Part shown: piece after piece, positions 5,792 to 20,451 of the stretch
How the letters are laid out: the number at the start of each line of letters is the position of its first letter
How positions within the stretch are numbered: the first letter of the stretch is position 1
From: an uncultured Verrucomicrobiota bacterium
GTDB lineage: Bacteria; Verrucomicrobiota; Kiritimatiellia; RFP12; UBA3636
Direction of reading: 5' to 3'
Assembly: GCA_949295265.1 (NCBI GenBank)
Contig: CASFKR010000007.1
Location: 1 to 37,968, forward strand
Length of the DNA: 37,968 bases
Notes under the pieces: generated by a model
Databases searched by the model: none
Seen by the model: the letters and a program-made list of their open reading frames with translations, nothing else
Told to the model about the DNA's origin: nothing
Program-made: the position numbers and the translations under genes

Positions 5792-6129
5792 CGCACCCTG
5801 CAGCATTCGCCCGGCATCGCCCGTCGCCCGGGCAAAGCCAGCAAAACGAGCCCAAGACAGGACGAACACGCCCCTCAAAGGGGGCGAATCATGCAAACCT
5901 CAAACGGCAGATTGCCGCCCTCGGGATGAGCGACGGCGAATCCCGAGGTAGAGCATCCCCTATATCCCGCCCCTGAAGAGGTCAAACAGTCCTGCGAAGG
6001 AAGAGCGGAGGGAGGCGCGGCACTTCCAGTGGCCCGGCAGCCTCACTCCCAGGAGCCCCGGATGGCACGCTTCTTTCTTCCGCTCTCCATGCCGCAAGGA
6101 AACCGGGATAAGCCTGGCGCGGGGCTGAG
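5792..6129. repeat. Gene-free spacer with hairpins and repeat-family modules
   Basis: No coding region seen. The stretch holds about 1.5 copies of a 9-bp unit (ACAGGACGA, then ACACG, 5857-5870) also found at 11557 and 18096. A hairpin CGCCCC/GGGGCG lies at 5869-5886, and a 9-bp perfect stem (CCTCGGGAT, 5919-5927, with ATCCCGAGG, 5940-5948). CCTCACTCCCAG-NN-GCCCCGGAT (6041-6063) is repeated at 18178-18200. It lies between GH16 and dapA; either hairpin may stop GH16 transcription, but no T-run follows. Confidence 0.6.
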
Positions 6130-9313: not shown

Positions 9314-9410
9314 CGCCGCGCCCGCTTTTATCGCACAACCGCTTTTTCGGCACAACCGTGCCCTTGGCACACCCGTGCCCTGTCCTCCCAACCACCTCCC
9401 CGGACCCGTC

Positions 9411-11437: not shown

Positions 11438-11485
11438 AAAAAAAGCCGTTGCGTTCCTGCGCAACGCGTTTTTTTTTTTTTTTTT
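11438..11485 (+). terminator. Intrinsic terminator after fmt, possibly bidirectional
   Basis: A CGTTGCG/CGCAACG stem (11447-11453 and 11460-11466) with a 6-nt loop is followed by 17 consecutive T (11469-11485). On the other strand the same hairpin is followed by seven T (complement of 11438-11444). It could therefore stop both fmt and leftward read-through past the GH42 gene. Confidence 0.85.
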
Positions 11486-11594
11486 GTGTGTGTGTTTCCC
11501 GCAGAGACGCAGAGTAAAAGCCACACCGGGGAGGGAGCCTGCGCAGCGGCCCGAAAACACGATGGACAGGACGAACAGGACGACTCGCTACCGC
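11486..11594. repeat. GT microsatellite, GCAGAGAC direct repeat and 9-bp repeat array
   Basis: No gene. After the T17 tract comes a short GT run, then CGCAGAGACGCAGAG (about 11502-11516). From 11557 there are three 9-bp units (ACACGATGG, ACAGGACGA, ACAGGACGA), directly followed by CTCGCTACCGC (11584-11594). The same unit and the same flank occur at 18096-18169, so this is a member of the window's dispersed repeat family. Confidence 0.65.
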
Positions 11595-17936: not shown

Positions 17937-18341
17937 CCGGGCGGCGGTTGCCGCCTCTTCTGCCGCTCGGCTTCTCAGGCAGTGGATTACCGCCGACCGG
18001 CCCCTCCGAGGCCGACATAGCCAGCGAAGATGGCTCCTTGCGGGCGCGTGATGCGAAAGCACACGCGCCCGCCTCCATTCCGGAGGTGTGGGGGGACACG
18101 ACGAACAGGACGGACACGACGAACACGACGAACAGGACGTACAGGACGAACACGACGGCTCGCTACCGCGTGTAGCGCCTCACTCCCAGTTGCCCCGGAT
18201 AGCCGCCAGCCTCCCCCGCACCATACTGCTGCCGTAGGCAGCGGGGTGGCTTGGGACGGGCGAGCCGCAGGTAGCGGCAGGCGCAGCCCGGTTCCGGAAG
18301 CGTAAAGAGCGGTCAAAAACGCTTTTCTTCTGTGGATAACC
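17937..18341. repeat. Gene-free spacer filled by the fullest copy of the repeat family
   Basis: No gene seen. In order: GGGCGGCGGTTGCCGCC with a near-copy of the valS 3' end (17950-17970 repeats 17910-17930 at 20 of 21 positions). Next is a strong hairpin, 18040-18072: 11-bp stem, one bulged A, 3-bp upper stem, GAAA loop. Then come seven 9-bp units of consensus ACA(C/G)GACGA (18096-18158), and CTCGCTACCGC with a 6-bp hairpin (18161-18177). CCTCACTCCCAG-NN-GCCCCGGAT (18178-18200) follows, then a GCTGCC/GGCAGC hairpin near 18229-18243. Modules are shared with spacers at 5857-6063, 11557-11594 and 24376-24560. Confidence 0.7.
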
Positions 18342-19320: not shown

Positions 19321-20451
19321 ATGACCCGTTCCATGCCCCGCTCCTCTTTTGTCCGCCAGGATGACGATGCCGGGAATTCATCCCGGCTCCAATGTGTGCT
19401 TGCCCGGCTCGGCGTCGCCTCGCGGCGGCGGTGCGCCGCCATCATTGCCGGAGGCGCCGTCAGCGTCAACGGCACCATCATCCGGGAACCCGGCTACCAC
19501 GTCGAAAACCCGGAGCAAGACGTCATCTGCGTACAGGGGCAGCAGGTTTCACCGCCTCAGGAAGCGCCCGCGCGGCGTGTCCTGATGTTCAACAAACCGG
19601 TCGGCGTACTCTGCACGGCTTCCACCACGGAGAACCGCCGGACGATTTTCGACCTGCTCAAGGGCTTCCGGGAACGGCTCGTTTCCGCCGGACGGCTGGA
19701 CCTGCATTCGCAAGGGCTCCTCATCCTTTCGAACGACGGTGCCCTGATTGACCGTCTGACGCATCCCCGCTACGGACACACGAAGATCTACCTCGTGGAT
19801 GTCAGTGGCGGGGACTTTTCCGCTTCCACCCTCGACGTCCTCCAGTCGCCCATGACGCTGGAGGACGGCTACCAGATCCGGCCTGCCCGCGTCGAGTACA
19901 TCAAGCCGCTCCACGGCGCCATGGGCACGCGGCTGCACCGGCTCCGGTTCACGCTCCGGGAGGGACGCAACCGACAGATTCGCCAGATGTGCGAACAGGC
20001 GGGTCTCAAAGTCGTCAACCTCACGCGTGTGGCGATCAACGGGCTCCATCTGCCGCCAGACCTCAAGCCGGGGCAAGCGCGCGACCTCTCGGCGCGCCAA
20101 CTGGCGCTTCTGGAGGAGATCGACGGCCGCCCGCTCCGTCCGTGGCGCTACACGGACTCGACCTTTTTCCGCGAGACGGGGCGTCCCCCGTGGGATGAAC
20201 CGCTCGATTTTTCGGTGCGCATTCCCGCAACGGAACCCAAGAGCCGCGCGGCGCGCAGCGCGACCGCCGCGAAAACCGCGAAAGCTGTATCCTGCGGCGA
20301 GCGCAACCTGCGTAGCGAGCGCAGCCCGCGCAGCGAACGCACTCCGCGTAGCGAGCGCACTCCGCGCAGCACGCCGGGGCGGAAGCCCAGGAGCGCCCGC
20401 ACCTTCGACAAACCCATTTCCCGCGGTCGCAAACCGCGCGGCAACCGCTGA
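19321..20451 (+). CDS. Pseudouridine synthase, RsuA/RluB/RluF family
   Basis: Isomerises uridine to pseudouridine in rRNA. An N-terminal S4 RNA-binding domain (RLQCVLARLGVASRRRC, then GGAVSVNG) precedes the catalytic domain. That domain has RVLMFNKPVGVLCT, SAGRLDLHSQGLLILSNDG (catalytic Asp in GRLD) and REGRNRQIRQMCEQ. The core ends near residue 290. A basic, low-complexity tail of about 85 residues follows, including RSER(S/T)P repeats encoded by four 18-bp DNA units (20308-20373); it probably binds RNA non-specifically. It is 20 bp after the PIG-L gene. Start at the first ATG; no SD. Which rRNA position is modified cannot be told. Confidence 0.9.
   Translation: MTRSMPRSSFVRQDDDAGNSSRLQCVLARLGVASRRRCAAIIAGGAVSVNGTIIREPGYHVENPEQDVICVQGQQVSPPQEAPARRVLMFNKPVGVLCTASTTENRRTIFDLLKGFRERLVSAGRLDLHSQGLLILSNDGALIDRLTHPRYGHTKIYLVDVSGGDFSASTLDVLQSPMTLEDGYQIRPARVEYIKPLHGAMGTRLHRLRFTLREGRNRQIRQMCEQAGLKVVNLTRVAINGLHLPPDLKPGQARDLSARQLALLEEIDGRPLRPWRYTDSTFFRETGRPPWDEPLDFSVRIPATEPKSRAARSATAAKTAKAVSCGERNLRSERSPRSERTPRSERTPRSTPGRKPRSARTFDKPISRGRKPRGNR

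Follow-up and report, generated by a model that had tools for sequence, protein, structure and literature searches.

Comparison with described repeat families

The STRR and LTRR families of filamentous cyanobacteria consist of short head-to-tail units that are multi-copy, intergenic and variable in unit number (LTRR are cited in PMC2408588), and arrays of the heptamer TAACTGA are found in Beggiatoaceae, Cyanobacteria and Bacteroidetes (PMC4679880). The arrays described here, from the draft genome of an uncultured Verrucomicrobiota bacterium, resemble both in being mixed with other repeats and amplified in a lineage-specific manner. In contrast to STRR and TAACTGA arrays, their unit is 9 bp instead of 7 bp and unrelated in sequence, palindromic arms often enclose the array, a second 9-bp array lies downstream, and they are not positioned just upstream of start codons. 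The arrays work like STRR; they are not STRR in the strict sense, because their unit is not a heptanucleotide. With REP/REPIN elements and their RAYT transposases they share the extragenic location, the high copy number, the clustering in mosaics and, for part of the arrays, the palindromic sequences (PMC3116915). However, the body of the array is made of tandem 9-bp units, no RAYT is recognised by the curated cut-off, the transposase gene is not flanked by the array element, abundance across the order is not tied to Y1 transposases, and no GTAG/CGTC tag (classes in PMC3733652) was seen as defining an array end. Ordinary VNTRs or minisatellites also differ in unit number between copies, as is seen here within the one genome of the genus that was analysed; unlike them, the present arrays belong to a single family that has common flanking arms and occupies well over a hundred sites. 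The literature searched contains no identical family and no description of 9-bp arrays of such kind, and a search of the whole window against Rfam at gathering score matched no repeat family and one tRNA only, in line with a preliminary description that could not assign the repeat to a known family.

With moderate confidence, we read the arrays as a dispersed intergenic family of the STRR kind, in which labile 9-bp arrays sit in small palindromic elements that spread by recombination or copying and whose core is possibly recognised.

The arrays of the window

The window is the whole stretch of DNA that was analysed, 37,968 nucleotides in length. Its features comprise arrays of a 9-bp unit, ACASGACRD (X), modules of a second 9-bp array, (CYCAGTDGC)n (Y), and associated palindromes:

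5847..5856, + strand: left arm CGAGCCCAAG of a truncated element
5857..5870, + strand: X array remnant of 1.5 units (ACAGGACGA followed by ACACG)
5920..5949, + strand: different palindromic repeat CTCGGGAT...ATCCCGAG, between the 5857 array remnant and the Y module
6042..6063, + strand: Y module CTCACTCCCAGGAGCCCCGGAT, 22 bp
9349..9379, + strand: small hairpin GGCACAMCCGTGCC, two copies; elsewhere it punctuates Y arrays
11546..11556, + strand: degenerate left arm GCGGCCCGAAA (consensus GCGAGCCGAAA) of the 11557 element
11557..11583, + strand: X array of three units, the first degenerate (ACACGATGG), then ACAGGACGA twice
11584..11594, + strand: right tail CTCGCTACCGC of the 11557 element
18096..18158, + strand: X array of seven 9-bp units of ACASGACRD, read in the sequence
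18157..18169, + strand: right arm GGCTCGC and conserved tail CTCGCTACCGC of the 18096 element
18179..18200, + strand: Y module CTCACTCCCAGTTGCCCCGGAT, 22 bp, a short degenerate copy of (CYCAGTDGC)n

Reading the sequence bore out the 7, 3 and 1.5 units of the preliminary description. The largest array has exactly seven, in the order ACACGACGA ACAGGACGG ACACGACGA ACACGACGA ACAGGACGT ACAGGACGA ACACGACGG. The claim that one and the same sequence directly follows the two larger arrays also holds: the exact 11-mer CTCGCTACCGC starts at 11584 and at 18159, and there is no third exact copy in the window. Both of these intact arrays, located after fmt and after valS, have a weak or missing left arm; the 18096 copy has the right arm only, its left arm being not recognisable. 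At 5857 only the left half of an element is present (a CGAGCC arm and 1.5 units), and it runs into the different palindromic repeat at 5920-5949; other copies of that palindromic repeat lie on both sides of the genome's only Y1 transposase gene. A two-unit pattern allowing up to three mismatches has nine matches in the window, vs a mean of 0.08 in dinucleotide-preserving shuffles, an excess of about a hundredfold. A higher-order unit of 27 bp, which had been reported for the window copy, was rejected as not general; lag-3 identity does not exceed that of shuffles. The window also contains a run of 17 T at 11469-11485, after fmt and followed by GTGTGTGTG, and, inside a called gene at 20297-20374, 4.1 copies of an 18-bp tandem repeat, GCGAGCGCAACCCGCGTA.

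Abundance in the genome

The draft genome of the host has a size of 2.82 Mb in 199 contigs and is 91.5% complete. The preliminary description had held the arrays to be more than chance low complexity, and far from being confined to the three sites of the window, the three-unit pattern has 524 matches genome-wide vs two for the reversed pattern, a more than hundredfold excess. Stretches amounting to about 1.15 Mb of the genome were read, some of them chosen because of matches. They contained 111 arrays, ranging from 2 to 13 units; 91 of these arrays have three units or more. Contigs that were not picked for matches have 48 arrays per Mb, corresponding to about 136 genome-wide, and scaling by matches gives about 150; the genome is therefore estimated to hold about 136-150 arrays of at least three units, and such draft-genome numbers are probably low, several arrays being located at contig ends.

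Structure of the element

Over 545 copies the unit reads A-C-A-(G/C)-G-A-C-(G/A)-(A/G/T), with ACA and GAC invariant at about 97% or more and restricted variation at positions 4 (S), 8 (R) and 9 (not C). The preliminary consensus, ACA(C/G)GACGA, was right as to a 9-bp unit; however, position 8 is R and position 9 is A, G or T, hence ACASGACRD. The sequence ACACGAC, i.e. without GGAC, is read in 31% of units. The register is strict, 403 of 431 successive motifs being spaced by 9 bp.

The commonest frame is GCGAGCC-GNAA-(unit)n-GGCTCGC with 2-13 units. Where the arm pair GCGAGCC...GGCTCGC occurs within 150 bp, it encloses an array in 55 of 59 strand-counted matches, and a second, unrelated arm pair, TGTGGCGGC...GCCGCCACA, does so in all eight of its matches. 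The short palindromes around arrays, GCGAGCC/GGCTCGC and GGTGTGGCGGC/GCCGCCACACC, are unrelated to each other. Stems of at least 8 bp anchored at the array ends are present in 21 of 90 arrays, vs 4.7 when the flank partners are shuffled and 0.2 at intergenic points drawn at random; palindromic arms of at least 6 bp were found in 35 of the 90, and the remaining arms are degenerate or absent. In minimum-energy RNA folds a stem spans the array in 68 of 91 cases, leaving about a quarter of arrays without one, vs 36 of 91 random intergenic segments; since random segments often fold with a spanning stem too, folding alone is a weak test. Covariation of the outer stem pairs is seen only at the first pair outside the 7-bp stem (p = 0.0016) and possibly reflects subfamily structure. 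The conservation of the flanks is far below that of the unit core.

In 24 of 36 neighbouring X-Y pairs, Y is located downstream of X in the same orientation, often at a distance of about 50 bp, and Y arrays also carry small hairpins, AAAAGGCACAACCGTGCC. Several further repeats make up a mosaic in the intergenic space, and X arrays are joined to them. Two other high-copy intergenic repeats were observed, TTGAGCCACACGGA with 88 copies in 1.15 Mb and ACACCTTGGTCGGAACGT with 52 exact ones, usually joined to a GGCGGC..GCCGCC hairpin with GAGAAAAAGTCC (e.g. L060:17095 and L076:15993).

Related arrays in the order and possible recognition of the core

The exact unit is practically host-specific, with one match in 40 relatives at three mismatches. 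Among 84,980 genomes, from which the host's own was possibly left out, it was found in 39 scattered stretches; the ones that were inspected proved to be repeats in coding sequence or arrays standing alone. A relaxed unit, MYRGGACRN, designed post hoc after weak matches had been seen, is present in 86 of 346 genomes of the class and, at five or more matches, in about 30 of the 163 genomes of the order (counts read from tables); in the same 163 genomes the reversed pattern reached 2, two shuffled cores 0 and 0, and their reversals 1 and 7. Units are lineage-specific, such as ATAGGACRT in G021, ATGGGACGA in G028 and ACGGGACRR in G083 and G093, and the flanks of the relatives' arrays are unrelated. 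In several relatives (stretches L170, L172, L174, L177, L236 and L237), a 9-bp array is followed by an inverted array, (GTCCCGTDA)n, giving a long imperfect two-array hairpin.

Short arrays of 7-9 bp units with other cores also occur in relatives (G021, G081). In G081, 117 matches to another 9-bp unit, NRCGGARYM, were met as a reversed control of a shuffled pattern, which suggests that the order may have further families of 9-bp arrays. The group appears to be generally rich in such repeats, with GGAC the most recurrent of the cores tested and not the sole one; because GGAC was picked as the pattern only after weak matches had been seen, its recurrence is to be taken as provisional. With relatives in the order carrying their own versions around a common GGAC core, the arrays represent a new lineage-wide family of intergenic repeat elements. 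Such repeated survival of the core suggests recognition by some putative factor. A core common to distant genera would be surprising if the satellites were purely neutral and had each arisen independently, which counts against the reading we prefer.

Two stronger readings start from this core. According to the first, which we rate as unlikely, the arrays would serve as binding sites in tandem: the order would possess a conserved factor that binds DNA or RNA and reads the GGAC-core 9-mer, and the arrays would be kept as platforms for chromosome organisation, RNA sequestration or regulation. The near-invariant core with its restricted variable positions, the weaker conservation of the flanks, and the multi-copy occurrence of MYRGGACRN next to differing flanks argue for such binding. 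However, rare alleles at about 1% at all positions indicate that recency accounts for much of the uniformity of the units; outside arrays the ACASGACRD motif shows no enrichment, its 25 intergenic singletons lying in the range of 13-60 seen for control motifs; the arrays follow no rule of position or orientation; and GGAC is missing from nearly a third of units. No known protein is a candidate, and CsrA, which would be the obvious one to bind GGA, is absent (no PF02599 match in the 91.5%-complete host genome). A sponge of CsrA/RsmA type was rejected on the same absence and on the units without GGA. The second reading, equally doubtful, is an order-wide system in which each lineage would amplify its own unit because a putative, undescribed factor, conserved and acting in trans, reads the 9-nt register; this factor could be a protein that binds DNA/RNA or an enzyme that copies. 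If true, it would represent a functional or selfish class of satellites not previously described in bacteria.

Dynamics and mode of spread

The proposal that a single element underlies the arrays and that its copies differ in unit number holds: of 60 array pairs whose right flanks share 80% identity or more, just six agree in unit number. Units within one array are barely more alike than random units (0.188 vs 0.142). The rare alleles are spread fairly evenly over all unit positions, as would fit a pool of variants that was amplified recently. In 34 elements, direct repeats in the flanks were not in excess; with no target-site duplications to point to a mechanism, the modes of spread considered below are proposals. 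Derivation from a DDE transposon (MITE) is not supported, no target-site duplication being present beside the terminal inverted repeats of these 34 elements.

An alternative that we consider improbable, more so than the two readings based on the core, is a miniature mobile element moved by a Y1 transposase of the IS200/RAYT type, as for REP/REPIN. The arrays do sit between palindromic arms, and the genome contains one Y1 transposase gene with inverted copies of a palindromic repeat on both sides; however, that repeat is a family different from the arrays, and by its score the Y1 protein belongs with IS200/IS605, the 24 bits that it reaches as a REP-associated transposase being below the cut-off of 80. 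In addition, the array-rich relatives G021, G028, G055 and G056, which are 92-95% complete, have no PF01797 protein, Y1 (PF01797) is present in 20 of 30 array-rich vs 97 of 133 other genomes of the order (p = 0.5; no association), and the elements lack target duplications. Mobilisation by Y1/RAYT as a general mechanism is disfavoured on account of the gene adjoining another repeat and of the array-rich relatives without PF01797. The Y1 locus itself (L040:18288-18743, in C12 of the genome), a single IS200/IS605-like gene between inverted CGACCCTGAAGGGGTCG / CTCGGGAT..ATCCCGAG copies, resembles a REPtron, with a protein below the RAYT cut-off.

For the dispersed STRR-like family that we prefer, we infer a mechanism from these patterns, in which replication slippage or unequal exchange inside the array would change the unit number, and recombination, template switching or gene conversion between intergenic repeats would disperse the copies. 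Dispersal would proceed without a dedicated IS200/RAYT transposase, most copies would have no gene-specific regulatory role, and the GGAC core may be recognised by some putative factor.

Gene context

Genes were called by a simple hexamer script, so that start sites and short genes are approximate. Of the 111 arrays, 98 neither lie within a called gene nor overlap one in part, and the spacers that bear arrays have a median length of 656 bp, vs 223 bp for all spacers. Array orientation relative to the replication strand, taken from coding GC skew, gives no signal (46 of 87).

A role as transcription terminators or as stabilisers of mRNA 3' ends is very unlikely. The stem-loop shape of the element and the location of both intact window arrays after genes would agree with it, and the preliminary description had asked whether sites lie consistently 3' of genes. 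That pattern does not extend to the genome, where the nearest gene end is 3' in 35 arrays and 5' in 38, on either strand, and where tandem, convergent and divergent spacers all hold arrays in proportion to their length; moreover, the stem is just 7-12 bp around a long array loop and there is no T-run. Decayed coding repeats or chance low complexity have a negligible probability: the period of 9 is a multiple of 3, but the variable positions (4, 8 and 9 in X; 2 and 7 in Y) are not codon-periodic, the arrays lie mostly outside called genes, and chance is ruled out by the shuffles and the reversed controls.

Implications

Bacterial genomes are usually thought to be satellite-poor, and in this order as a whole, intergenic arrays of 9-bp units with one core have been amplified repeatedly, apparently without a dedicated transposase. 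The arrays could serve as markers for strain typing and may explain broken assemblies in the group. The order offers a natural series of genomes for asking how small repeats multiply and whether a factor recognises them.
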